From assembly GCA_021813445.1 (NCBI GenBank), contig JAKAKP010000116.1, forward strand, positions 1 through 58,263: 58,263 nt of DNA, read 5' to 3'. Below the pieces are notes generated by a model, which saw only the letters and a list, made by a program, of their open reading frames with translations, was not told the DNA's origin and made no database searches. The stretch is from Deltaproteobacteria bacterium (lineage in GTDB: Bacteria > Desulfobacterota > Desulfobaccia > Desulfobaccales > 0-14-0-80-60-11). The position numbers and the translations under genes are program-made. Each line of letters starts with the position of its first letter. Position 1 is the stretch's first letter. Shown here one piece after another: positions 1-34,152 of this stretch.

Positions 1-786
1 ATTTCCGCGGTGGAAGAGATCGATAGCGTGATCAAGTGTATCGAGATGGGGGCCGCGGATTACCTGAATAAGCCCTTTAATCCCACCTTGCTGAAGGCCC
101 GGGTCGACGCCTGCCTGGAAAAAAAACGCCTGCAGGACGAACAGCGGGCCCTGTTTCGCAGATTTGCCACCGACGAGGTGGCGGACGAGCTGCTCAACTC
201 GGGGTTTTCCCTGGGCGGCAGGCTGGTGGAGGCCACGGTCCTTTTCAGCGACATCCGCTCCTTCACCACCATCGCCGAATCCCAATCTCCGGAAGATACC
301 ATCGAATTGTTGAACTCTTACTTTTCCTTGATGATCGATGCCATCGCCAATGAAGGGGGCATCGTCAATCAACTCATCGGTGACGGTATAATGGCCATCT
401 TCGGGGCCCCTTTACCGCTGCCGGACCACCGCCAACACGCGGTGCGCGCCGCCCGGCAGATGATGGAACTCATCGGTTTGTTCAACCACGAGCAGGCCGC
501 CTTGAACCGGGTACAGATCAAGATCGGCATCGGCATCGCCTCCGGCACGGTCGTAGCCGGCTATGTGGGCACCCAACGCCGCGCCACCTATACCTGCGTG
601 GGTGATACGGTCAATCTTGCCGCCCGCCTAGAGGCGCAAACGAAGGTAATCGGGGACCCGATTTTGCTGGATGAGAATACCTATCTGGGCCTCGAGGGTG
701 ACATCCCCATTGTGCCCCAGGGTAAATTGAAGCTAAAGGGCAAGACCCAGGCGGTGAAAGTCTTTTCGGTGCCCCTGCAGGAATAG
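1..786 (+). CDS. Receiver-domain adenylate/guanylate cyclase, 5' end missing
   Basis: The frame is open from the first base, so the N-terminus lies outside the window. The first ~45 residues are the end of a response-regulator receiver domain (GAADYLNKPF, containing the conserved Lys). A short helix leads into a class III nucleotide cyclase domain that fills the rest. Cyclase signatures are visible: LFSDIRSFT with the first metal Asp, IGDGIMAIFG with the second, and VGDTVNLAARLE with the transition-state Asn and Arg. The family makes cAMP (less often cGMP), here presumably under phosphorelay control. It is convergent with the CheY-like gene at 983-1420. It is one of two class III cyclases in this window. 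Whether it prefers ATP or GTP cannot be told with confidence. Confidence 0.9.
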   Translation: MSAVEEIDSVIKCIEMGAADYLNKPFNPTLLKARVDACLEKKRLQDEQRALFRRFATDEVADELLNSGFSLGGRLVEATVLFSDIRSFTTIAESQSPEDTIELLNSYFSLMIDAIANEGGIVNQLIGDGIMAIFGAPLPLPDHRQHAVRAARQMMELIGLFNHEQAALNRVQIKIGIGIASGTVVAGYVGTQRRATYTCVGDTVNLAARLEAQTKVIGDPILLDENTYLGLEGDIPIVPQGKLKLKGKTQAVKVFSVPLQE

Positions 787-873
787 TGCGGAGCCGCATT
801 GCTTCCAGGGCTTTTATACCAATTTCATATTGCCCTGCAACAAACCCAGAATCAGCGGCGTTTATCTGCGTTT

Positions 874-21470: not shown

Positions 21471-23924
21471 ATGAAGCTTCGCTCCATTTTATTAATACTC
21501 TCCCTGTTATCTTTTCTATCCGCGTCTGCCGGCGGCTACCTCTACTATGCCTCCCTCAAGGAAGGTGCGGTGCATGAGGCCGAGCGGCAATCGCTGAACC
21601 GCCTGGTGGCCATCAAGAAAAACCTCTCCACCTCCCTGGCCGAAAACGTCAAACCCACGAGAGTCTTGGCCGGGATGAAGGAAATCCGGGAGGCCCTGGT
21701 CCGGCCCGGCCCCGGGTCTCTGGCCCGGGCCAACGCCATGCTGGACTATTTTCAAAAGACCCTGAACGCGGAAGTCTGCTACCTGATAGATCGCCGGGGC
21801 AATACCCTGGCCTCCAGCAACCGCCACGCCCCGGACAGCTTTGTGGGCATTAACTTTGCTTTCCGGCCTTATTTCCAACGGGCCATGGCCGGGGATCCCT
21901 CCTCTTACCTGGCCCTGGGCACCACCTCCAAGAAACGGGGGGCCTACTACGGCCAGCCGGTGTATGGCCCAGGAAAAACGCCGGTGGGCCTGGTGGTCAT
22001 CAAGGCCTCCATCGAACATATCGAAGAAGAGTTGGGTGCGGATCGTGACGAAATTGTCCTGGTGACCGATCCCGCGGGCATTATCTTCATCTCCAGCCGC
22101 AAGGGTTGGCTGAACCGGACGATGCAGCCGCTTTCCCCGGAACAAACCGCTAATATCGCCCGGTCGGTCCAGTTTGGGGCTGGCCCCTGGCCCTGGACAG
22201 GGCTGACTTTAAAGGAGCCCCAGACCGCGGTGGATGCCACCGGTGAAGAGTATCTGTTGCACCGTTTGGAAATGGAAAGATATCCGGGCTGGCACGTCAT
22301 TTACCTCCGCAGTCTCAAGGCCATCGCCAAAACCGTGTCCGACCCCTTCAGGCGCACCGCCGGCCCTATCATCCTTCTTTCGCTCCTGCTCATCGGCTTG
22401 GCCGTGGGCCTCCTCTACCGCAAGGCCAGCCGGGAGCTCACCCGGCGCCGGGAGGCGGAGGTGGCCTTGCGCAAAAGCGAAGAGCGCTACCGTTTCCTCT
22501 ATAACAATACCCCGGCGATGCTGCATTCGGTGGACCCGGCCGGCATCCTCCTGAGCGTCTGCGACTACTGGTGCGAGGTGTCGGGATATTCCCGGGAGGA
22601 AGTCATCGGCCGGAATATCCTGGAGTTTCACACCGACGCGTCCCGGCGCTATGCCGAAGAAACGGTTTTTCCCCAATTCCGGGAAAACGGCTTCGTTAAA
22701 GATGTCCCCTACCAGTTCGTGAAAAAGAATGGAGAGATCATCGACATCCTGCTCTGCGCCTTTGGGGAGCGGGACGACCAAGGAAACCTGGCCAGATCTC
22801 TTTCCGTTTCCATCGATGTCACCGAACGGCTGCGGGCGGAAAAGGCCCTGAAGCTGGCCCAGGAGGAGTTGAGCCGCTACTCCCAGGACCTGGAGCGGCA
22901 GATCCGCAATCGCACCCGGGAAATCGCCAGCATCCTAAAATATACCCCCGCGGTCATTTATATTAAGGATAAAGAAGGCCGCTACACTCTGATCAACCCC
23001 CGCTTCGAAAAATTGTTCGGCCTAAGCCAGGAGGAAGTGCGTGACAAGACCGACTACGACATTTTCCCCCGGGAAACCGCGGACCAGCTCCGGGCCCACG
23101 ACCTCCAGATCCTGGCCACCCAGGTCTGCCAGCAGGTGGAGGAACAGATGCCCCAGGCCGACGGGCTGCATACTTATCTCTCGGTAAAGTTCCCCATTTA
23201 CGACGATTCCCGGGCCATCAGCGGCCTGTGCAGCATTGCCACGGACATCACCGAAGTGAAAAAGGCCCAGGACCAGTTACGGAGGCTCTCCGGGTCCATT
23301 ATCGCCGGCCAGGAAAAGGAGCGCACCGCCATCGCCCGGGAGCTCCACGATGAGTTGGGGCAGATGCTCACCGCCTTGCGCCTGGACTGCGTCTGGCTGG
23401 CGGAACGCCTCAAAGGTACGGATGGTACGGCCAAAGAGAGGGCCGCGGGCATGTGTGGCCTGATCGACAAAGGGATCCAGGAAGTGCGGGAGATGGCGGT
23501 GCGGCTGCGCCCCGGGGTCCTGGACCGGCTGGGGCTGGTGGACGCCCTGGAATGGTACACCGCGGATTTCGAGCGGCGCACCGGCATCACCTGCTTCTTT
23601 GAGCGCGACGGCGTGCCCGCCATTCAGGACAATGTAGCTACCGCGGCTTACCGCATCGCCCAGGAAGCCCTGACCAACGTGGCCCGCCATACCAACGCCA
23701 ACCTGGTGAACGTCACCCTCCAGGCAACAGAAGGCCTGCTTACCCTCACCGTCACCGACAACGGCCAGGGCTTCGACGCCACCAAGCTCACCGCGGAGGA
23801 AGGACTGGGCATCGCCGGCATGAAGGAGCGGGCCGGCCTGGTGGGAGGCAAGCTGGAGGTCCAGTCCCAGGCGAGAAAAGGGACCAGCGTCTACCTTAAG
23901 GTACCCCTTGAGGAACGTTCATGA
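21471..23924 (+). CDS. Membrane sensor histidine kinase (Cache-PAS-PAS-HisKA_3)
   Basis: An 817-residue NarX/DegS-type kinase. TM1 (about residues 5-26) and TM2 (about 297-316) bracket a ~270-residue periplasmic Cache-like sensor. Two PAS domains follow (about 335-460 and 485-605), joined by a coiled coil (ALKLAQEELSRYSQDLERQI). Residues ~610-680 are HisKA_3 with the phospho-acceptor His626 in ARELHDELGQ. The ATPase domain follows, with DNGQGFD and GLGIAGMKERAGLVGG. Its stop overlaps the start of the regulator gene (ATGA), so the two form a cognate pair. The ligand is unknown; the double PAS suggests an additional cytoplasmic redox or small-molecule input. Confidence 0.95.
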   Translation: MKLRSILLILSLLSFLSASAGGYLYYASLKEGAVHEAERQSLNRLVAIKKNLSTSLAENVKPTRVLAGMKEIREALVRPGPGSLARANAMLDYFQKTLNAEVCYLIDRRGNTLASSNRHAPDSFVGINFAFRPYFQRAMAGDPSSYLALGTTSKKRGAYYGQPVYGPGKTPVGLVVIKASIEHIEEELGADRDEIVLVTDPAGIIFISSRKGWLNRTMQPLSPEQTANIARSVQFGAGPWPWTGLTLKEPQTAVDATGEEYLLHRLEMERYPGWHVIYLRSLKAIAKTVSDPFRRTAGPIILLSLLLIGLAVGLLYRKASRELTRRREAEVALRKSEERYRFLYNNTPAMLHSVDPAGILLSVCDYWCEVSGYSREEVIGRNILEFHTDASRRYAEETVFPQFRENGFVKDVPYQFVKKNGEIIDILLCAFGERDDQGNLARSLSVSIDVTERLRAEKALKLAQEELSRYSQDLERQIRNRTREIASILKYTPAVIYIKDKEGRYTLINPRFEKLFGLSQEEVRDKTDYDIFPRETADQLRAHDLQILATQVCQQVEEQMPQADGLHTYLSVKFPIYDDSRAISGLCSIATDITEVKKAQDQLRRLSGSIIAGQEKERTAIARELHDELGQMLTALRLDCVWLAERLKGTDGTAKERAAGMCGLIDKGIQEVREMAVRLRPGVLDRLGLVDALEWYTADFERRTGITCFFERDGVPAIQDNVATAAYRIAQEALTNVARHTNANLVNVTLQATEGLLTLTVTDNGQGFDATKLTAEEGLGIAGMKERAGLVGGKLEVQSQARKGTSVYLKVPLEERS

Positions 23925-24559
23925 TTAAAGTCCTTTTGGCAGACGACCACGGCATTGTCCGGGCGGGGCTCCGGCGCCTGGTGGAGGAGAGCGGCGACAT
24001 CGCGGTGCTGGCCGAGGCCGCGGACGGCCGGGAGGCCATCCGCCTGGCCCGGGAACAGGAACTGGACGTGGCCGTCATTGACCTCACCATGCCGGGCCTG
24101 GACGGGCTGGAGGTAATCAGCCAGCTCAAGCTCTATTGCCCCAAGCTCCCCATCCTGGTCCTCACCATGCAGGAAGAGGGCCAGTTCGTGGTCCGGGCCC
24201 TGGGCGCCGGGGCCAAAGGCTATATCACCAAGCAATCAGCCCCGGAGCAACTGGTCAGCGCCATCCGCAAAGTCTACGGCGGCGGCACGTATCTTTCCGA
24301 AACCGCGGCCGAAGCCCTGGCCCTCCATGCCACCCGGGAAAGCCCGGGCCGGTCGCTGTTGAGTTCGCTGTCCAACCGGGAAATCGAGGTGCTGCGGCGC
24401 CTGGCCTCGGGCCAGACCAACCGGGAGATCGCCGACGCCTTCGGTATCAGCGTCAAGACCGTGGACGCCTACCGCCAACGCCTTTTGAAGAAACTGAACC
24501 TGCGCAACAATGCCGAACTGACCCGCTTCGCCATCCAGAACCGGCTGGTGCAGCCTTAA
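23921..24559 (+). CDS. NarL/LuxR-family response regulator
   Basis: A 212-residue regulator. The receiver domain has DDH at residues 8-10, phospho-acceptor Asp54 in VAVIDLTMPG, and Lys in GYITKQS. A LuxR-type HTH occupies the last ~65 residues (LSNREIEVLRRLASGQTNREIADAFGISVKTVDAYRQRLLKKL). It overlaps the kinase by 4 bp and is almost certainly phosphorylated by it. The liv transport genes follow 190 bp downstream on the same strand and could be targets, though no operator is recognised. There is no clear terminator after it. Confidence 0.95.
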   Translation: MIKVLLADDHGIVRAGLRRLVEESGDIAVLAEAADGREAIRLAREQELDVAVIDLTMPGLDGLEVISQLKLYCPKLPILVLTMQEEGQFVVRALGAGAKGYITKQSAPEQLVSAIRKVYGGGTYLSETAAEALALHATRESPGRSLLSSLSNREIEVLRRLASGQTNREIADAFGISVKTVDAYRQRLLKKLNLRNNAELTRFAIQNRLVQP

Positions 24560-24749
24560 TACCCTGCCGGATCTTCTCCAAATACAGAAATTTTCTTATA
24601 CCAAAAGCCGAAATCCTCTAATTTTCAGGGCGGCTCCTCCCAGGTAAATAGAAGCCATAGGGGATCGACCTCCTTTTTGGGTCTTTCCCCCTGTGCCCTT
24701 TTTCGATAGCCACTGGGCTTGAAGTTAACCCTGAAGAAATGGAGGAGCT

Positions 24750-26060
24750 ATGCAACAAGGGTGGAAAGGCGTTTTTCTCATGGTGGCCGGTTTAGTGCTG
24801 TCGGTTCTCATTCTGCCGCTGGCGGCCTGGAGTAAGCAAGAGCCTCCGGCACAGCCGGCTGCGGTCCCCCAGGCCGCGGCCAGCAAGACGATAACCATCG
24901 GCTTCACCGCCTCCCAAACCGGGAAGCTCAACGTGGAGGCCATTCGCCAGATCAACGGCCTGAACCTCTGGATCGAGCAGGTGAACAAGGCGGGAGGCAT
25001 CAAGCTGCCAGACGGCACCACGCTGAAAGTGGCGGCCAAGTTCTATGATGATGAAAGCAACAAGGACCGGGTGCAGGAACTATATACTCGCCTCATCAAC
25101 AATGATAAGGCCGACTTCCTGATCAGCCCTTACAGCAGCGGCCTGGCGGATGCCGCGGCCGTGGTGGCCCAGCAGAATAAGCGGATCATGATCACTGCCG
25201 GGGCTTCCTCGGACTCTACCCATTACAAGGGTTTTTCCCTGGTTTACATGACCTATACGCCCGCTTCCCGGTATCTGACGGGCGCAGTGGACCTATTGGG
25301 CAAACTGGCCCCGGATGCCAAAAAAATCGCCATTATTCATGAGAAAGATAAGTTTTCCACCGACTCGGTGAACGGCTTGCGGAAGTATGCCGAAGGCAAG
25401 GGCTACAAAATCGCCATGTTTGAGGGCTACGACAGCGGCACCACCGATTTCGCCCCCTTCATCAACAAGATTCCCCAGGGGGTGGACGCGGTCATGGGCG
25501 GCGGCCATTTTGCGGATACCACCACCTTAACCCGCCAGCTATACGAGAAAAAGGTCAAGACCAAGATGATCGCCCTGCTGGTGGCGCCGCCGGAACCCAA
25601 GTTCGCGGAACTGGGCGACGCCTGCATCGGTGTCATCGGCTCCAGCCAGTGGGAACCGGTGGCCAAGTACAGCCCCGAAGCCGCCAAAGCCCAGGGGGTG
25701 GAATGGTTCGGGCCCACCGTGGCCGAGTTTGTCAAAGAATATCAGGCCAAGTATGGCAAAGAAGAGCCTTCCTACCATAGCGCCGGCGGTTATGCTGCGG
25801 GTCTGATCCTGCAAAAGGCCATCATGAAGGCCGGGTCCACCGACACGGAGAAAGTCAAGGCGGCCCTGGACGGTGAAGACATGTATACGTTTTACGGGCA
25901 CATCAAGTTCGACACCACCCCCAAGGCCCACGGCCTGCAGCTGGGCCACGAGATGATCGTCATCCAGTGGCAGAAGGACGCCCAGGGCAAACCCCATAAA
26001 GTGGCGGTCTATCCGCCGGCCGCGGCCATCGGCAAGGCCATGGTCTGTCCGGAGCGCTAA
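24750..26060 (+). CDS. livK: LIV-type ABC transporter substrate-binding protein
   Basis: A 436-residue periplasmic binding protein of the branched-chain amino-acid type (type 1 fold, Peripla_BP_6). A signal peptide (about residues 8-28, FLMVAGLVLSVLILPLAAW) precedes the mature start. The family opening ITIGFTASQTGKLN and INGLNLWIEQVNKAGGI is visible, then KFYDDESNKDRVQELYTRLI and DFLISPYSSGLADAAA. A GGAGG ribosome-binding site is present. It is first of livKHMGF. The true ligand may be branched-chain amino acids, amides, or another small organic compound; the fold does not decide. A stable hairpin after the gene may make livK mRNA more abundant than the permease mRNA. Confidence 0.92.
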   Translation: MQQGWKGVFLMVAGLVLSVLILPLAAWSKQEPPAQPAAVPQAAASKTITIGFTASQTGKLNVEAIRQINGLNLWIEQVNKAGGIKLPDGTTLKVAAKFYDDESNKDRVQELYTRLINNDKADFLISPYSSGLADAAAVVAQQNKRIMITAGASSDSTHYKGFSLVYMTYTPASRYLTGAVDLLGKLAPDAKKIAIIHEKDKFSTDSVNGLRKYAEGKGYKIAMFEGYDSGTTDFAPFINKIPQGVDAVMGGGHFADTTTLTRQLYEKKVKTKMIALLVAPPEPKFAELGDACIGVIGSSQWEPVAKYSPEAAKAQGVEWFGPTVAEFVKEYQAKYGKEEPSYHSAGGYAAGLILQKAIMKAGSTDTEKVKAALDGEDMYTFYGHIKFDTTPKAHGLQLGHEMIVIQWQKDAQGKPHKVAVYPPAAAIGKAMVCPER

Positions 26061-26071
26061 GAAACTGACGT

Positions 26072-26095
26072 AGGGGCACAGCTCGCTGTGCCCCT
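26072..26095 (+). repeat. Hairpin between livK and livH
   Basis: AGGGGCACAG-CTCG-CTGTGCCCCT has perfect 10-bp arms, 12 bp past the livK stop, with no T-run. It is a REP-like mRNA stabiliser or partial stop that could raise binding-protein expression over that of the permease. Confidence 0.7.
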
Positions 26096-26165
26096 CAACC
26101 GCAAAAACAAACTGCTTGACCTCGCCGCGGCAAAGCGGCGGGGCCCAGAGACGAGAGACTGGCAA

Positions 26166-27020
26166 GTGACACAGATACTACCTTCCATCATAGACGGTCT
26201 GCTCATCGGCTTCGTGTACGGCGTCGCGGCCATGGGCCTGACCCTGATCTGGGGCGTGATGCGGGTCATCAACCTGGGCCATGGCGCCACCATGGCCCTG
26301 GGGATGTTCTGCACCTATTTTTTATTCTCCGATTTGGCGGTGAACCCTTACCTGGGAATTCTGGCGGTGGTGGTGCTGTCCCTGCTCTTCGGCTTCATCA
26401 TTTACGGGGTGGCCTTACAGCGGGTGATCCAGGCGGGGTATCTCTCTACCCTGCTGGCCACCTTTGCGGTGAATATGATTATCATCGGCGTGGGCACCGC
26501 ACTCTTCACCACCTCCCCCAGGAATATCGATTTCTCTGCGGGTTCCATCACCCTGGGGCCGGTGATTCTCCAGGGCACCCGCCTGCTGGCGGCCCTGGCC
26601 GCGGTGGTGATCACCGGGGCCCTTTATCTCTTCCTTTATTGCACCCGGCCGGGAAAGGCCATCCGGGCCGTGTCCAATAACCGGGCCGCGGCGGAGTTGA
26701 TGGGGATTCCCTCCTCCTACGTCCTGGCCCTGGCCTTCGGCTTAGGCACCATGCTGGCCGCAGTGGCCGGGGGGCTCACTTCCACCTTCTTCCCCTTCAC
26801 CATCCTGAGCGGCGCTACCTACCAGCTAAAGTCCTTCGTCATCTGCGTCCTGGGCGGTTTGGGGAATCCTCTGGGCGCCCTCCTGGGCGGGCTGTTTCTG
26901 GGCGGCCTGGAAGGCGTCATCCCCACCTTTATGCCGGTGAGTTGGGTGCCGGTGGTGGAGTTCGTGTTATTCGTCCTGGTCCTGGTGGTCAAACCCACCG
27001 GGCTGTTGGGGGCCAAGTAG
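26166..27020 (+). CDS. livH: LIV-type ABC permease LivH
   Basis: A ~284-residue inner-membrane permease. The GTG at 26166 is chosen because the family N-terminus (ILPSIIDGLLIGFVYGVAAMGLTLIWGVMRVINLGHG) begins directly after it. An upstream ATG at 26088 would add a charged, unrelated leader that includes part of the hairpin region. About eight membrane helices are visible, and the NLGHGAT motif near residue 40 is the LivH hallmark. It is followed by livM without a gap. With LivM it forms the transmembrane channel of the transporter. Confidence 0.92.
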   Translation: MTQILPSIIDGLLIGFVYGVAAMGLTLIWGVMRVINLGHGATMALGMFCTYFLFSDLAVNPYLGILAVVVLSLLFGFIIYGVALQRVIQAGYLSTLLATFAVNMIIIGVGTALFTTSPRNIDFSAGSITLGPVILQGTRLLAALAAVVITGALYLFLYCTRPGKAIRAVSNNRAAAELMGIPSSYVLALAFGLGTMLAAVAGGLTSTFFPFTILSGATYQLKSFVICVLGGLGNPLGALLGGLFLGGLEGVIPTFMPVSWVPVVEFVLFVLVLVVKPTGLLGAK

Positions 27021-27989
27021 ATGAATGCCTGGCGGCAACCCGGTTTCTGGGTCAGCTTTCTCCTGATCTTCCTGGCAGGCGTGGCGGTCCTGGTCCTGCG
27101 CCAGGATACCCTGCGGGAGACGGCCTTTACGGTGCTCATGTTCATCGCCCTGGCCTCCAGCTTGAATATCCTCATGGGCTACACCGGCTACGTCAATTTC
27201 GGCCACATCGTCTTCTTCGGCCTGGGGGGGTATTTCGGCTTCTACCTGGTGAGCGAAATGGGCTGGCCGGTTTACCTGGCGGCGCTGGGCGGCGGGGTCC
27301 TCTCCGCGGTCATCGCCTACATCATCGGCTGTGCGGTGCTGCGGCTGCGGGGGGCCTATTTCGCCCTGGCCACCATCGGGGTTAATGAGGCGGCCCGGGC
27401 CTTTGTCAGCAATTTCGAGCCCTTCGGGGGCTCCACCGGCTTATATGTCAACTTTGCCGCGTATGACCGCTACGGCGGCGCGGCCCATGCCCTCTGGTTC
27501 ACCTTCATCCTCCTGTGGCTCGTTACTCTGGCGGTGGTAGTGACGAGCTATCTGGTGAAGCGCTCCCGCTTCGGCCTGGGGCTCAGCGCCATCCGGGAGG
27601 ATGAAGACACGGCCATGGTCATGGGGGTGAAGGCCCCCCAGGATAAAACCAAGGCCTTTTTGATCTCCGCCTTTTTCCCCGGTCTCATCGGCACCCTCTA
27701 TTTCTTTAAAAACGGCAATGTGGAGCCGGATGACGCGTTCCGCTTTCAAATGTCCCTGGAGATCCTGGTGATGGTGATGCTGGGGGGCAAGGGCCTACTT
27801 TTGGGGCCGATTGCCGGGGCCTTCGCATATGAGCGGCTGCGGGGTTATCTGATTATCAGCCCCATGTTCAAAGACTTGCATCTGGCGCTGTCCGGACTCA
27901 TCTTGTTACTCATAGTCCTATTCGTCCCCGGGGGCGTAGTGGGCTGGTTGCGGGAGCGCTTGCCCCATTACAGGAGGTGGCTGGAATGA
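27021..27989 (+). CDS. livM: LIV-type ABC permease LivM
   Basis: A 322-residue permease with an N-terminal helix (VSFLLIFLAGVAVLVL) and the family motif LNILMGYTGYVNFGHIVFFGLGGY near residue 48. The cytoplasmic coupling region SRFGLGLSAIREDEDTAMVMGV is near residue 190. It starts at the base after the livH stop. Its own stop overlaps the livG ATG, so livHMG is translationally coupled. It pairs with LivH in the membrane. Confidence 0.93.
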   Translation: MNAWRQPGFWVSFLLIFLAGVAVLVLRQDTLRETAFTVLMFIALASSLNILMGYTGYVNFGHIVFFGLGGYFGFYLVSEMGWPVYLAALGGGVLSAVIAYIIGCAVLRLRGAYFALATIGVNEAARAFVSNFEPFGGSTGLYVNFAAYDRYGGAAHALWFTFILLWLVTLAVVVTSYLVKRSRFGLGLSAIREDEDTAMVMGVKAPQDKTKAFLISAFFPGLIGTLYFFKNGNVEPDDAFRFQMSLEILVMVMLGGKGLLLGPIAGAFAYERLRGYLIISPMFKDLHLALSGLILLLIVLFVPGGVVGWLRERLPHYRRWLE

Positions 27990-28729
27990 TCCTCCAGGTT
28001 CAGGAAGTCCACAAGCGCTTCGGCGGGCTCCAGGCCTTAACGGACGTTAACTTCGAAATCGCCCCCGGCGAGATCATGGGGCTCATCGGCCCCAACGGCG
28101 CGGGCAAGACCACTCTGTTTAATGTGATCAATGGGGTTTATCCCCCCACCAAGGGCCAGGTGGTCTTCCGGGAGGAAAAGATCACCGGTCTGCCCCCCTA
28201 TGAAGTGGCCCGGCGGGGTCTGGCCCGGGCCCACCAAGTGGTGCGGCCCTTGAACGATCTGACCGTCCGGGAAAATGTCATGGTGGGGGCCTGCTTTGGC
28301 CGGGAACGCCTCTCCCTGGGCAAAGCGGCTCAAAAAGCCGATGAGGCCCTGGCTAAGGTCGGTCTGGCGGACCGGGCCGGCCAGCTCGCCGGCAGCCTCA
28401 ACGTGGCCCAAAAGAAACGCCTGGAGCTGGCCCGGGCCCTGGCGGCCAATCCCTATCTCCTGCTCTTGGACGAGGTCCTGGCGGGGCTGACGCCCTCGGA
28501 GATCGTGGGCATGATGGACACTCTCCGCAACATTCGGGACGAGGGCTTCACCATCCTGATGATTGAGCACGTGATGCAGGCGATCATGTCCATTTCCGAC
28601 CGGATCATCGTCCTGGACTACGGCCAGCTCATCGCCGCAGGCAAACCCGGGGAAGTGGCCGCCAATCCCCTGGTCATCGAGGCCTATCTGGGCGATCCGG
28701 ATATGACCGCCAGACTCATGGCGGAATGA
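27986..28729 (+). CDS. livG: LIV-type ABC ATPase LivG
   Basis: A 247-residue ATPase. The ATG at 27986 is chosen because AGGAGG lies 8 bp before it; an in-frame GTG 9 bp upstream falls in that site. Walker A is GPNGAGKTT near residue 35. The usual LivG insertion around VRRPL-type sequence is VVRPLNDLTVRENV. The signature loop reads SLNVAQKKRLELARAL where most ABC proteins have LSGGQ. Walker B is LLLLDEVLAG, and the switch His is in MIEHVMQ. The weakened signature is worth noting, though LivG proteins vary here. Confidence 0.92.
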   Translation: MILQVQEVHKRFGGLQALTDVNFEIAPGEIMGLIGPNGAGKTTLFNVINGVYPPTKGQVVFREEKITGLPPYEVARRGLARAHQVVRPLNDLTVRENVMVGACFGRERLSLGKAAQKADEALAKVGLADRAGQLAGSLNVAQKKRLELARALAANPYLLLLDEVLAGLTPSEIVGMMDTLRNIRDEGFTILMIEHVMQAIMSISDRIIVLDYGQLIAAGKPGEVAANPLVIEAYLGDPDMTARLMAE

Positions 28730-28734
28730 GCGGT

Positions 28735-28855
28735 AGCACGGGCTTTCCAGCCTGTGCGGATTCTTTCTCGTACAAAAGCTGCGCTTGGGAACTCCTGGCC
28801 CGCCAAGCTCAGCTTGGCAAAAACAAGCGTTCCCAAGTGCAACTTGGGAACGAGG
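28735..28855. repeat. Cluster of short palindromic repeats between livG and livF
   Basis: A GGGCTTTCCAGCCTGTG palindrome (28735-28759) is followed by repeated GCTTGGGAAC/GTTCCCAAG and CCAAGCT/AGCTTGG motifs to about 28855. Non-coding and able to fold extensively. It interrupts an otherwise compact operon. Confidence 0.7.
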
Positions 28856-28866
28856 GAAAATAAGAA

Positions 28867-29577
28867 ATGAATCTCTTAGAAGTCAACGACATAGCTTCCG
28901 GTTACGAAGGGGTCCAGATCCTCTGGGGCGTGAACCTGCGCTTGGAGAAGGGCAAACTTACCACCCTGGTGGGCTCCAACGGCGTGGGCAAGACTACACT
29001 GCTCAGCACGGTTATGGGTTTGCTGCGCCCCTGGCAGGGGAAGGTGACCTTTGAGGGCAAAGACGTCACGGGCCTTCCGGCCCATGGCCGGGCCAAGGCG
29101 GGGATGGTCCTGGTCCCGGAAGGCCGCCAGCTTTTCACCGAAATGACCGTCCTGGAAAACTTGGAAATGGGGGCCTTCTCCGGGCGGGCCCGGGCTTCCT
29201 TTAATCGCAACCTGGACATGGTCTTTGAGCTCTTTCCCCGGCTGCAAGAGCGGGCCAAACAGAAGGCCGGCACCTTGAGCGGCGGCGAGCAGCAGATGGT
29301 GGCCGTGGCCCGGGGCCTGATGGCCGAGCCGGAGGTCTTGATGCTGGACGAGCTCTCCTTGGGCCTCTCTCCTTTGCTGGCCCTGACCCTGTTTGAGTCT
29401 CTCACCCAGTTGAAAAAGACCGGCCTGACCATGCTCCTGGTGGAGCAGAACGTCTCCATGGCCCTGGCCGTGAGCGACTATGCCTACGTCCTGGCCGAAG
29501 GCCGGGTCCACTTGGAAGGGGAAGCCCGGGCCCTCATGAAGAACGACGAGGTGCGCCGCACCTATTTGGGGATTTAA
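28867..29577 (+). CDS. livF: LIV-type ABC ATPase LivF
   Basis: A 236-residue ATPase. Walker A is GSNGVGKTT near residue 38. The LivF-specific MVLVPEGRQLFTEMTVLENL lies near residue 80. The signature is LSGGEQQMVAVARGL, Walker B is LMLDELSLGLSP, and the switch region is LLVEQNVSMAL. It is separated from livG by a 137-bp repeat cluster, but shares strand and function. It forms the nucleotide-binding pair with LivG. The CBS protein follows 15 bp later. Confidence 0.95.
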   Translation: MNLLEVNDIASGYEGVQILWGVNLRLEKGKLTTLVGSNGVGKTTLLSTVMGLLRPWQGKVTFEGKDVTGLPAHGRAKAGMVLVPEGRQLFTEMTVLENLEMGAFSGRARASFNRNLDMVFELFPRLQERAKQKAGTLSGGEQQMVAVARGLMAEPEVLMLDELSLGLSPLLALTLFESLTQLKKTGLTMLLVEQNVSMALAVSDYAYVLAEGRVHLEGEARALMKNDEVRRTYLGI

Positions 29578-29592
29578 CCAAGGAGGTTCACC

Positions 29593-30249
29593 ATGCCCGT
29601 CAGGGAATTAATGAGCAAAAAGCTGATCACCGTCACGGTGGATGACAGCGTTATGAAGGCCTCCAAACTCATGAAGGAACACGGCATCCAACATCTGCCC
29701 GTCCTCAAACAAGGGGCGCTGGCGGGTATTGTCAGCGACCGCGACCTGAAAGAGGCCTCCCCTTCCAAAGCCACGGCCCTGGATATCCATGAACTCTATT
29801 ATCTGCTGGATCAGATCACCGTGGGCAAGGTGATGCCCACCCGGCTCTTCACCGTCTCCCCGGTGGATACCGTGGAAAAAGCCGCGGCCATCATGCTCAA
29901 GCACAACATCTCGGCCCTGCCGGTGGTCAACCCGGAAGGCGGTCTGGAGGGCATCATCACTAAAGGCGACATCTTCCGGGCCTTTGTCTCCATCTCCGGG
30001 ATCTACCAGGGAGAGTGGGCCATGGGCTTTGAACTGGCGGACGACCCCGGCTCCATCAAAGAAGTCACCGACGTCATCCGGGCCCACGGGGGCCGCATCG
30101 CCAGCATTTTGACCGGGTACGAATGGGCCCCGGCGGGTTTCCGCCACGTCTACATCCGGGCCCGGGACCTGGCGGATGCCATGGCCCTTCAGCAGGAATT
30201 GGGCCGCAAAGTCAAGATTATCTACTTCCTCCATGAGAAAGTGGACTAG
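29593..30249 (+). CDS. CBS-pair protein with C-terminal ACT-like domain
   Basis: A 218-residue cytoplasmic protein. Two CBS motifs are visible: MSKKLITVTVDDSVMKASKLM with HLPVL and GIVSDRDL (residues ~6-60), and VMPTRLFTVSPVDTVEKAAAIM with ALPVV and GIITKGDI (about 82-135). The last ~70 residues (FELADDPGSIKEVTDVIRAHGGRIASIL) look like an ACT-type ligand domain, as in AcuB-like proteins. Such proteins sense adenine nucleotides. AAGGAGG precedes the ATG. It sits between livF and the malic-enzyme gene (3-bp gap), so it may regulate one of them. That link is inference. Confidence 0.88.
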   Translation: MPVRELMSKKLITVTVDDSVMKASKLMKEHGIQHLPVLKQGALAGIVSDRDLKEASPSKATALDIHELYYLLDQITVGKVMPTRLFTVSPVDTVEKAAAIMLKHNISALPVVNPEGGLEGIITKGDIFRAFVSISGIYQGEWAMGFELADDPGSIKEVTDVIRAHGGRIASILTGYEWAPAGFRHVYIRARDLADAMALQQELGRKVKIIYFLHEKVD

Positions 30250-30252
30250 TCC

Positions 30253-32775
30253 ATGACCGTCGAATTCGATACCCTGTCCTACCGTCGGCGTTACCGCGGC
30301 CTCATCGGCGTGCAGAGCAAGATGCCCATCCGGGACATGTCGGTGCTGAGCCGCATCTATACCCCCGGGGTGGGCGCGGTGTGCCGACTGATCGAGAAAA
30401 ACCCCCTGGCCTCTTACAGCCATACCTGCCGGGGCAATACCATCGCCCTGATCTCCGACGGCAGTGCGGTCTACGAGTTCGGCAACGTCGGGGCCCTGGC
30501 GGTGCTGCCCAAGTTGGAAGCCAAGTCGGTCCTTTTCAAGACTTTCGCCAATGTGGACGCGGTGCCCATGGCGCTTAAAACCCAGGATGCCGATGAAATC
30601 GTGGAGATCGTCCGCACCCTGGCCCCTTCCTTCGGCGGCATCTGTCTGGAGGGGATCGCCGCGCCCAAGTGCTTCGCCATCGAAAACCATATTCGCAAGG
30701 CCGTCCGGGAGGCGGTGTTGCACCATGAATTCCATGCCGCGGGCATCATTGTCCTGGCTGCGCTCATCAACGCCCTCAAGGTGGTGGGCAAGGGCCTGGA
30801 GGAGGTGCGCATCGTCATCAACGGCGCCGGGGTCTCCGGTATCGGCGTGGCCAAGGGACTGATCGTCGCCGGTCTGAAGAATATTATTCTCTGCGACCGC
30901 CATGGCGCGTTGCGGGTATACCGCCAGGTGGGCATGAATTGGGCCAAGTCGGAAATCGCCCGCCTAGTGGGACCCCAGGACGTCAAGGGGAGCCTCGCCC
31001 AGGTCCTCAAAGGCGCGGACGTCTTCATCGGCATGTCTTCAGGAGGCCTGGTCACCAAAGAAATGGTGGCCTCCATGGCCCCGGACCCCATCGTTTTCGC
31101 CCTGGCCCTGCCCGAGCCAGAGATCAGCGAGGCCGAAGCCATAGCCGGGGGCGCGGCGGTGGCGGCCACGGGCCTGGCGGACAGCACCAACCAGGTGCGC
31201 TCTTCCCTGGTGACCCCGGGATTCTTCCGGGGCTGCCTGGATGTGGGGGCCAACCGGGTCAATATCGAAATGTACCTGGCCGCGGCCCGGGCCCTGGCGG
31301 GCATGATTCCTGACGACCGGCTCACTCCCCAAAATATTATTCCCCGGCAGATGGACTGGCACATCTCCCCGGTGATCGCCGAGGCCGTGGCCCGGGCCGC
31401 CCAGGAGACCGGGGTGGCGCAGCTGGGCCCGGAGGTGGTCACCCCGGAGCGGATTCATCAGCGCACCGAAAGCTATATCTATGAAGGCGAAATGGCCTGG
31501 CTGCCTTCGGAAGGCCAGGATTACGGGAAGATGAGCATCGATGAGGAGGCCCTGGAACTGCACCGCCGCTATCAAGGCTGCATCCAGGTCAATACCAAGG
31601 TGCCCATCAAGGACGAGGTCATCTATAGCCATCTGTACGCGCCCCAGCCAGTGGCCGCAGTGGTGCAGAAAATCCTCCAGGACCCCATGGCCGCTTATGA
31701 TTATACCTGCAAAAACAACCTGGTGGCCATCGTCACCGACGGCAGCGCGGTGCTGGGTTTCGGCAACCTGGGTCCCCGGGCCGCACTCCCGGTCATGGAG
31801 GGCAAGGCCATCCTCTTTAAAACCTTCGGCGGCGTGGAGGCCTTTCCCATCTGTATCAGCACCCAGGAACCCGACAGAATTATCAACCTGGTGGAAAACA
31901 TTGCCCCCGCGTTTGCGGGCATCAACCTGGAGGACATCTCCTCGCCCCGCTGCTTTGACATCGAGCGGAGCCTCATCGAGAGGCTGGAGATCCCGGTATT
32001 TCACGACGACCAGCACGGCACCGCGGTAGTGGCCCTGGCCGGCCTGATGAACGCCCTGAAGATAGTGGACCGCAACCTGGCGGAGGTAAAGATCGTGGTC
32101 AATGGCGCCGGGGCTTCCGCCATCGCCTCCATCAAAATTCTCCTCCAGGCCGGGGCCCAAAACATCGTGGTCTGCGACACTACCGGCGTGATTTATAAGG
32201 GCCGCAACAAAGGCATGAATTCCATCAAACAGGAGCTGGCCGCGCTTACCAACCCGGACCGGCTGCGAGGCACCCTGGCCGATGTCCTGCGGGGGGCCGC
32301 GGTCTTCATCGGCCTCTCCGGCCCCAACGTCCTCAACCGGGAGATGGTGCAATCCATGGCCCCGGACCCCATTGTCTTTGCTCTGGCCAATCCGGTACCG
32401 GAGATTCATCCCGAGGAGGCCAGGCAGGGGGGCGCCCTGGTGGTGGCCTCGGGCCGCTCCGATTTTCCGAACCAGGTCAACAACTGCCTGGCCTTTCCCG
32501 GCATCTTCCGGGGGGCCCTGGACGTGCGGGCCCGAACCATCAACGAGGAAATGAACGTGGCCGCGGCCCATGCCATCGCCGGCCTGGTTGGCAGCGATTT
32601 GAGCCCCGGCTACATCCTGCCGGGGGCCATGGACTTCCGGGTGCCGCCGGCCGTGGCCCAGGCCGTAGCCCGGACCGCCATGGACACCGGCACGGCCCGG
32701 GTGCAGATCGAACCGGAACGGGTAGCCCAGCATACCCGGGAATTTATCTACGACGAGAGACTGTCATTGCTGTAA
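30253..32775 (+). CDS. Double-length malic enzyme with a degenerate N-terminal copy
   Basis: An 840-residue protein made of two full malic-enzyme units in tandem (residues ~10-415 and ~425-838). Each has the malic and NAD-binding domains. The C-terminal copy keeps the metal site (Glu560-Asp561 in NLEDIS, HDDQHGT at 584-590), catalytic Lys518 in MEGKA, and GRSDFPNQVNN. The N-terminal copy keeps YTPGV (from Tyr36), Lys91 and the dinucleotide GAGVSG, but has EG for ED (133-134), HHEFHAA for HDDQHGT (157-163) and GLADSTNQVRS for GRSDFPNQVNN. Conversely, the second copy has YAPQPV where YTPGV is expected. The N-terminal half is probably a regulatory pseudoenzyme. It decarboxylates malate to pyruvate, most likely; the preferred cofactor is unclear. 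Confidence 0.9.
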   Translation: MTVEFDTLSYRRRYRGLIGVQSKMPIRDMSVLSRIYTPGVGAVCRLIEKNPLASYSHTCRGNTIALISDGSAVYEFGNVGALAVLPKLEAKSVLFKTFANVDAVPMALKTQDADEIVEIVRTLAPSFGGICLEGIAAPKCFAIENHIRKAVREAVLHHEFHAAGIIVLAALINALKVVGKGLEEVRIVINGAGVSGIGVAKGLIVAGLKNIILCDRHGALRVYRQVGMNWAKSEIARLVGPQDVKGSLAQVLKGADVFIGMSSGGLVTKEMVASMAPDPIVFALALPEPEISEAEAIAGGAAVAATGLADSTNQVRSSLVTPGFFRGCLDVGANRVNIEMYLAAARALAGMIPDDRLTPQNIIPRQMDWHISPVIAEAVARAAQETGVAQLGPEVVTPERIHQRTESYIYEGEMAWLPSEGQDYGKMSIDEEALELHRRYQGCIQVNTKVPIKDEVIYSHLYAPQPVAAVVQKILQDPMAAYDYTCKNNLVAIVTDGSAVLGFGNLGPRAALPVMEGKAILFKTFGGVEAFPICISTQEPDRIINLVENIAPAFAGINLEDISSPRCFDIERSLIERLEIPVFHDDQHGTAVVALAGLMNALKIVDRNLAEVKIVVNGAGASAIASIKILLQAGAQNIVVCDTTGVIYKGRNKGMNSIKQELAALTNPDRLRGTLADVLRGAAVFIGLSGPNVLNREMVQSMAPDPIVFALANPVPEIHPEEARQGGALVVASGRSDFPNQVNNCLAFPGIFRGALDVRARTINEEMNVAAAHAIAGLVGSDLSPGYILPGAMDFRVPPAVAQAVARTAMDTGTARVQIEPERVAQHTREFIYDERLSLL

Positions 32776-33294: not shown

Positions 33295-34152
33295 ATGTCG
33301 CTGCCATTGCTGCCGGTTCCGGGATATACGGATTTTTCCTTGAGAAAGGGGGGCGCGCCTTTTAGGACCGGCTCACCTTTCGACACCCAGATGCTGGCCC
33401 AGTTCCGCTTGACTGGCGACGTCTCCCCTCTCTTCCCCTACATCAACGCGGTGGCCGACTCTTCCAGCCTCCTGGAGAAACCCCGGTTTATCCGCTTTGT
33501 GCTGGACGGGGTTTGCTGCGGCCTCTATCCCGATCACGGCATCGCCGGCGCTTTCGCCAGCCGGGACCAGGCCCTGGGGTTTCTGGACCGGCTGCTGGCC
33601 TTCCTCAATGATCTCGGCCGGCGCCAGGATGAACTCCAGCCCAACTACAAGAGCTGGAACCCGGTGCCGGTGCTGGATATCTTCCGGCTGCTGCCCCGTA
33701 CCAACTGCCGGAGCTGCGGCTATCCTTCCTGCCTGGCCTTTGCCGCGGCCTTAAGCCGACAAAGAACCAGCCCCCGGCGCTGCCCCGGATTTAGCTCTCC
33801 CATCTCCACCCAGGCGGTCTACCCGGTCCATGATAAATTCGGCAATCTGCTGTCCACGGTGACCCTGGAACTCGATCTGTCCCCTCCCGGTCGGAGACCA
33901 GCCGCGGCAGAACCTTCCAGCCCCAAGAAAGTGGCGGCCCAACGCGATGATTACCTGGCCGCGCCCCTGACCGGGCGGGAACTGGAGGTGCTGCGGCTGC
34001 TGGTCCAAGGGGCCACCAATGGGGAGATTTCCAGCTCCCTGCAGATCAGCCGGCACACCGTCAAAAGCCATGTAATCCATATTTTCAACAAGTTGGGAGT
34101 CAATGACCGCACCCAGGCCGCGGTCCGGGCCCTGCAGCAGGAGCTGGTCTGA
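33295..34152 (+). CDS. Fe-S-binding LuxR-family regulator
   Basis: A 285-residue fusion. Residues ~40-135 match the N-terminal region of stand-alone (Fe-S)-binding proteins of anaerobes (FPYINAVAD..., LQPNYKSWNPVPVLDIFRLLP). A 4Fe-4S domain of the PF04060 type follows (Cys138-x2-Cys141-x4-Cys146-x16-Cys163). After a Pro/Ala/Ser-rich linker, residues ~224-282 are a LuxR-type HTH (LTGRELEVLRLLVQGATNGEISSSLQISRHTVKSHVIHIFNKL). This is a plausible redox-, oxygen- or one-carbon-responsive one-component regulator. There is no receiver domain. It stands alone between the malic-enzyme gene and a broken methyltransferase, with a moderate AGGTGG site. Confidence 0.88.
   Translation: MSLPLLPVPGYTDFSLRKGGAPFRTGSPFDTQMLAQFRLTGDVSPLFPYINAVADSSSLLEKPRFIRFVLDGVCCGLYPDHGIAGAFASRDQALGFLDRLLAFLNDLGRRQDELQPNYKSWNPVPVLDIFRLLPRTNCRSCGYPSCLAFAAALSRQRTSPRRCPGFSSPISTQAVYPVHDKFGNLLSTVTLELDLSPPGRRPAAAEPSSPKKVAAQRDDYLAAPLTGRELEVLRLLVQGATNGEISSSLQISRHTVKSHVIHIFNKLGVNDRTQAAVRALQQELV

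Follow-up and report, generated by a model that had tools for sequence, protein, structure and literature searches.

A tandem malic enzyme of sulfate-reducer-like bacteria is probably a fused pseudo-heterodimer with one composite active site

Introduction

Small, MaeB-type malic enzymes (MEs) are intertwined homodimers, in which the YTPGV segment of each chain threads into its partner and supplies the catalytic Tyr there. The phytoplasma ME reportedly works likewise, with a Tyr36 donated in trans (Alvarez et al. 2018, cited in PMC11944484). In the non-swapped eukaryotic MEs, the Tyr segment stays inside the subunit to which it belongs. In MaeB, the crossover region contributes its Y52 to the active site of the partner (PMC7902834). 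In the Entamoeba enzyme (EhME), Lys120 NZ is located 2.8 Å from the Tyr65 OH of the other chain, the interlocked region comprises approximately residues 46–92, and the β1 strands pair across the dimer (PMC11944484). The Asn of the ANP motif touches the nicotinamide ribose in homologues (PMC11944484). MaeB-type MEs are also under allosteric control (PMC7902834, PMC12704298).

Here we describe an ME from a 58,263-nucleotide stretch of DNA that was analyzed as a whole (the window). In this protein, two ME halves are joined in one chain. The ME family is known, and the tandem architecture is not described in the papers searched, which were an open-access subset. We estimate at about 0.85 the probability that the chain is a fused, entangled ME pseudo-heterodimer in which one composite active site works and the other site is dead.

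Results

Two malic enzyme domains in one chain

The gene is a single unbroken ORF with an ATG start (Table 1), and its 840-residue product consists of two MaeB/small-type ME domains in tandem. Pfam malic (PF00390) and Malic_M (PF03949) each matched two stretches of the chain (E values of 3.6e-37 and 3.2e-37 in the Pfam scan), and the two halves (residues ~1–424 and 425–840) are ~45% identical to each other. The top NCBIfam match was PRK12861, which is MaeB-type, with a score of 639 against the family cut-off of 1178. The score is far below this cut-off because the model expects one ME domain plus a PTA domain; the Pfam scan found no PTA domain in the 840-residue chain, and the two ME halves occupy its whole length. 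The only other ME in this genome is of the large eukaryote type and lies on a separate contig (G000:C157; locus L002).

The source assembly consists of 166 contigs, and an ORF of this kind could come from an error of assembly or gene calling in which neighboring genes were collapsed. The probability of such an artefact is negligible. The open frame recurs in dozens of independent assemblies, including the single-contig genomes G048 and G246, it is free of stops over ~830–880 residues, and its halves, 45% identical, cluster separately. The single-contig genomes with the tandem form and the 51 non-identical proteins described below refute this explanation.

Table 1. Features of the tandem ME and its neighborhood (window coordinates)
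Feature	Position	Strand	Description	Basis
Sensor kinase and response regulator	21471-24559		dCache/PAS sensor kinase (MctS-like) and LuxR-type response regulator; start of the apparent operon	
Liv-type ABC transporter	24750..29577	+	Binding protein, two permeases, two ATPases; same apparent operon	
Two-CBS protein	29593..30249	+	Weak ACT-like tail; possible regulator	Pfam, neighbor comparison
Tandem ME	30253..32775	+	840 aa	ORF; Pfam malic/Malic_M twice
N half (1-424)	30253..31524	+	Degenerate ME domain; proposed donor of the Tyr segment	51-protein alignments; own clade
N-half segment 17-62	30301..30438	+	Equivalent to the segment swapped in small ME dimers	Maps to EhME 46-92
N-half YTPGV	30358..30372	+	Tyr36, predicted catalytic Tyr of the C-half site	51/51
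Glu133-Gly134	30649..30654	+	Broken metal ligand pair, N half	
HHEFHAA (157-163)	30721..30741	+	Broken HDDQHGT, N half	First Asp lost in 51/51
GAGVSG (191-196)	30823..30840	+	Retained dinucleotide motif, N half	
Leu286	31108..31110	+	Replaces the ANP Asn, N half	
Arg316-Ser317	31198..31203	+	Replaces the malate-binding NN, N half	
C half (425-840)	31525..32772	+	ME body with complete metal/substrate/coenzyme site	8/8 body residues, 51/51
C-half segment 443-489	31579..31719	+	Counterpart of the swapped segment; degenerate loop	
YAPQPV (462-467)	31636..31653	+	Broken C-half YTPGV loop, Tyr462 kept	
Lys518 (MEGK)	31804..31806	+	Catalytic Lys, C half	51/51
Glu560-Asp561	31930..31935	+	Metal ligands, C half	51/51
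HDDQHGT (584-590)	32002..32022	+	Catalytic/metal Asp585-Asp586, C half	51/51
Asn713 (ANP)	32389..32391	+	Nicotinamide ribose contact in homologues, C half	51/51
Asn743-Asn744	32479..32484	+	Malate-binding pair, C half	51/51

Reciprocal losses are fixed among the homologues

The phylum search covered 395 genomes; the complete tandem protein was encoded in 43 of them, and in one more it is cut by a contig end. The homologues from the phylum, family, and order searches represent 12 families within a single phylum and are 51–92% identical to the window protein. The carriers are a group of sulfate-reducer-like bacteria. We aligned all halves of 51 non-identical tandem proteins together with 22 single-domain MEs. 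Eight body residues were scored: Lys518, Glu560, Asp561, Asp585, Asp586, Asn713, and the NN pair Asn743 and Asn744, which we take to bind malate by analogy with human ME2.

An earlier note on this DNA had proposed that the two copies degenerated reciprocally, and its description of the N half was accurate. In the window protein, the metal ligands of this half are lost, with Glu133-Gly134 in place of the C-half pair Glu560-Asp561 and HHEFHAA (starting at His157) in place of HDDQHGT (starting at His584), and GRSDFPNQ is replaced by GLADSTNQ (residues 307–314). The N half keeps YTPGV, which begins at Tyr36 and is present in 51/51 N halves, and the dinucleotide motif GAGVSG, whose Gly191 and Gly193 are found in 51/51 and 50/51 N halves, respectively. 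Two further N-half losses went beyond that description: FALALP replaces FALANP at the equivalent of Asn713, and RS replaces NN (743–744). The C half is intact in its metal site and its EGK, ANP, and NN motifs. The replacement of YTPGV by YAPQPV in the C half was likewise correctly described, but the Tyr itself survives there: the change consists of the loss of Thr and Gly and the gain of one residue.

The same two-half pattern was found in 51/51 full-length homologues. None of the 51 tandem proteins has both halves intact, which is what the earlier note had named as counterevidence, and truncated or frameshifted versions were absent among the 51. None of the eight body residues is altered in any C half (51/51) or single ME (22/22), and N halves retain two to five of the eight. 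No N half (0/51) has the leading Asp of HDD or the second NN Asn, and the ANP Asn is present in 51/51 C halves versus 3/51 N halves, i.e., it is gone from 48. The residue equivalent to Lys518 is Lys in 33 N halves, Arg in 10, and Val in 8. In the C-half loop, Thr was never found (0/51), the extra residue is universal (51/51), and Tyr is present in 50/51, while all 22 single MEs carry Y[TS]PGV. Of the 88 columns that are invariant in the 22 single MEs, 27 were lost solely in N halves, none of them within the swapped segment, and two solely in C halves, both of them inside the YTPGV motif. This distribution of losses relative to the swapped segment gave a Fisher p of 0.0025, calculated with columns treated as independent although the sequences are related.

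The Lys of the GK motif (residues 17 and 443; 30301-30303 and 31579-31581) corresponds to Lys46 of EhME, which marks the point of entry of the chain into its partner. It is invariant in 22/22 single MEs and was lost in all N halves and 49/51 C halves.

As for the distribution of other forms, genome G246 carries a separate single-domain ME in addition to its tandem ME, and the Desulfobacca-family genomes searched contain small-type ME in tandem form only. An N-terminal ACT domain is present in some of the phylum's single MEs (e.g., L084:501-1880 (-) in genome G261; ACT_4, E 8.7e-8), a different route to added regulation of ME. Scans of viral contigs for further tandem forms gave single-domain MEs only. 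A candidate broken tandem form (L029, genome G053) was rejected, as it is an ordinary single ME.

The losses match a proposed single composite active site

The swapped architecture of small MEs offers an explanation for this pattern. The interlocked EhME region 46–92 corresponds to residues 17–62 and 443–489 of the window protein. A dimer of two unequal halves would contain two composite sites, one with the Tyr of the N half and the body of the C half, and the other with the Tyr of the C half and the body of the N half. After tandem duplication and fusion, one of these composite sites would have been retained, namely that formed by Tyr36 of the N half with Lys518, Glu560, Asp561, Asp585, Asp586, Asn713, and Asn743/744 of the C half. 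The opposite site, in which the Tyr462 loop of the C half meets the body of the N half, would then have been free to decay and lose catalysis, and the N half would persist as an obligatory co-catalytic scaffold. If only the site with the N-half Tyr and the C-half body is kept, YTPGV is needed in the N half and all else in the C half, and this is what was observed.

The complete set of Tyr, Lys, the Glu/Asp/Asp metal ligands, the ANP Asn, and NN exists only as an N plus C composite in 51/51 proteins. Two equal sites, as in the homodimeric small MEs, are not present, because in 51/51 proteins the N-half site has neither the first HDD Asp nor the second Asn for malate. Comparison with ordinary MEs gave the same division. 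In loop 31–48, 22/22 ordinary MEs are nearer to the N half (mean identity 55% versus 33%), and in the body 22/22 are nearer to the C half (56% versus 45%). When windows of 15 columns were compared, 31–45 was the sole stretch where the N half is clearly more ordinary than the C half.

One observation stands against the composite site: 50/51 C halves still have Tyr462, which has no catalytic job if the second site is dead. Together with the otherwise intact catalytic residues of the C half and the retained Rossmann motifs of the N half, it would fit an arrangement in which the C half is complete and dimerizes with its counterpart in a second chain, Tyr462 being donated in trans, and the N halves pair with each other as regulatory or structural pseudo-enzymes. 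We consider this arrangement unlikely. It leaves unexplained why YTPGV is kept in 51/51 N halves amid the decay of the remaining site, and why all 51 C-half loops have an extra residue and no Thr when the 22 single MEs uniformly have Y[TS]PGV. Furthermore, the AlphaFold2 model described below pairs N with C.

The predicted structure pairs the N half with the C half

The 840-residue chain was modeled with AlphaFold2. A first run with a 16-row alignment gave a pTM of 0.51, with residues 1–48 and 411–467 below a pLDDT of 50 and the YTPGV loop unplaced, and was excluded as evidence. The second alignment consisted of the first one plus three distant single MEs (19 sequences) and gave a pTM of 0.82 and a pLDDT of 83.8. 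This model forms both β1 strands (residues 18–21 and 445–448). The confidence of the YTPGV loop is modest (mean pLDDT ~55 for residues 31–40), and known swapped dimers may have biased the AlphaFold2 prediction.

The small-ME fold was found in each half of the model, as 5cee aligned on residues 3..390 (Z 50.8, rmsd 1.4, 387 aligned) and 2dvm on 429..840 (Z 52.3, rmsd 1.7, 410 aligned). Swapped MEs thus align to one half, whereas the non-swapped eukaryotic MEs aligned to a range from residues 20–24 to 836–840 over ~380 residues at 25–29% identity. For human ME1, 379–383 residues were aligned at 26% identity. A combination of residues 20–62 of the N half with 489–840 of the C half would give 384 positions at 26.6% identity with human ME1, whereas the N body gives 22%. 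The range and identity of the ME1 alignment therefore fit the combined segments and not the N body, from which we infer that the model places the Tyr segment of the N half on the body of the C half. Pairing of N with C within the chain is thus predicted by the model. The suggestion in the earlier note of a mutual dependence of the halves through a shared active site is strongly supported by the trans-donated Tyr of the relatives, the division of losses in 51/51 proteins, and the predicted fold. Its other option, a regulatory pseudo-half, would be compatible with these results.

Both halves are under purifying selection

We built a tree from 124 sequences, comprising halves and single domains; all N halves fell into a clade of their own (SH-aLRT 99), as did all C halves (94). 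As the halves are each monophyletic, a single fusion suffices, and one duplication plus fusion is the simplest history. The N half evolves ~1.2 times faster than the C half in amino-acid distance, and this, with its lost catalytic residues, could mean that it is a decaying relic beside a C half that works alone as a monomer. Such a relic is very improbable. In 15 pairs, dN/dS was 0.04–0.16 for the N half versus 0.06–0.20 for the C half, the fusion is kept across 12 families with no truncated or frameshifted forms, and small MEs need the Tyr segment of a partner. By these ratios, the N half is under purifying selection as strong as that on the C half, and is no relic.

The degenerate N-half site may bind a nucleotide

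The Rossmann residues of the N half (Gly191, Gly193, Gly207, Asp215, Gly218, Arg224, and Lys232) are kept at 98–100%, the last five of them in 51/51 N halves each. By symmetry, Tyr462 should still face the N-half site. It is plausible, judging from the conserved residues, that this site is a pocket for an adenine-type nucleotide that serves as a structural or regulatory ligand without catalysis.

The composite-site reading can be extended on this basis, tentatively, to a dead N-half site that is allosteric for an adenine nucleotide or CoA-type ligand and tunes the shared site. This would agree with the loss of the nicotinamide-ribose Asn and the metal and malate residues while the Rossmann residues were kept, with a Tyr462 that caps the N-half site by symmetry, with a dN/dS as low as that of the C half, and with the allostery of MaeB-type MEs (PMC7902834, PMC12704298). 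The Rossmann residues may, however, serve folding or the interface alone. More doubtful still is the full picture of a fused interlocked dimer, possibly a truly knotted chain, with one catalytic site kept and the other now a nucleotide-sensing control site.

The neighborhood suits a malate function

The tandem ME is the last gene of an apparent operon (21471-32775) with the kinase/regulator pair, the Liv transporter, and the CBS protein, an arrangement that suggests substrate-induced uptake tied to malate metabolism. The liv genes are also directly upstream of the tandem ME in L036 and in L082, which belongs to another family. In L080, two lactate/malate dehydrogenase genes follow immediately after the tandem ME homologue (L080:6366-8254).

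The CBS gene is indeed 3 bp upstream, as it ends at 30249 and the ME starts at 30253, but the proposal that its CBS/ACT product is a partner fared poorly. Among the ~19 Desulfobacca-family loci whose flank was long enough, 9 have a homologue immediately upstream, and no locus of another family has one; relatives of the window genome include MAGs named Desulfobacca. The ACT part of the protein is a sub-threshold match (ACT, E 0.12). The CBS protein was rejected as an obligatory partner, since it is not upstream in most homologues. The neighborhood thus suits a malate function without a fixed partner. Downstream of the ME, a protein encoded at 33295-34152 of the window joins a LuxR-type DNA-binding domain to a putative Fe-S cluster domain (PF04060).

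Discussion

The tandem ME presumably converts L-malate by oxidative decarboxylation to pyruvate, CO2, and NAD(P)H, with one active site per chain. It would represent a natural homodimer with shared active sites that was fused and in which the labor was then divided. The division coincides with the known swap boundary, so the residue losses are predictable from the dimer structure. The family could serve as a test bed for which half of a split site persists, whether dead sites turn regulatory, and how a joined interlocked dimer folds. The automatic label "NADP-dependent malic enzyme" conceals a one-site pseudo-heterodimer of this probable kind.

The small-subunit MEs (AYWB-ME 5cee, Thermotoga TM0542 1vl6, Pyrococcus PH1275 2dvm, and Entamoeba EhME 3nv9) have the fold of each half, the same swapped Tyr segment, and the same catalytic residues as both tandem halves combined. 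Their dimers are made of identical chains and have two equal sites, whereas the tandem ME consists of fused unequal halves with one site probably dead. In the hybrid MaeB enzymes of E. coli and Bdellovibrio (ME + PTA), the ME domain is homologous to both halves and also receives its Tyr (Y52) in trans, but the second domain is a phosphotransacetylase-like regulator, and that of the tandem ME is a second ME half.

The large eukaryote-type MEs (human ME1/ME2 and E. coli MaeA) likewise have one full site per chain with the Tyr within the chain. They achieve this via insertions in one domain (PMC11944484), and the tandem ME would achieve it by duplication and fusion. The tandem ME is not of the large type, as it is not a single domain of ~550 aa with the Tyr/Lys insertions and YTPTVG.

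The closest known logic is that of the adenylyl cyclase C1/C2 pseudo-heterodimer, in which split sites and reciprocal losses have left one active and one degenerate site. The mammalian membrane adenylyl cyclases also derive from the duplication and fusion of a homodimer (PMC9552081 for the fusion history). The cyclases differ in that their fold and reaction are unrelated, and the halves of the tandem ME are, in addition, predicted to be physically entangled.
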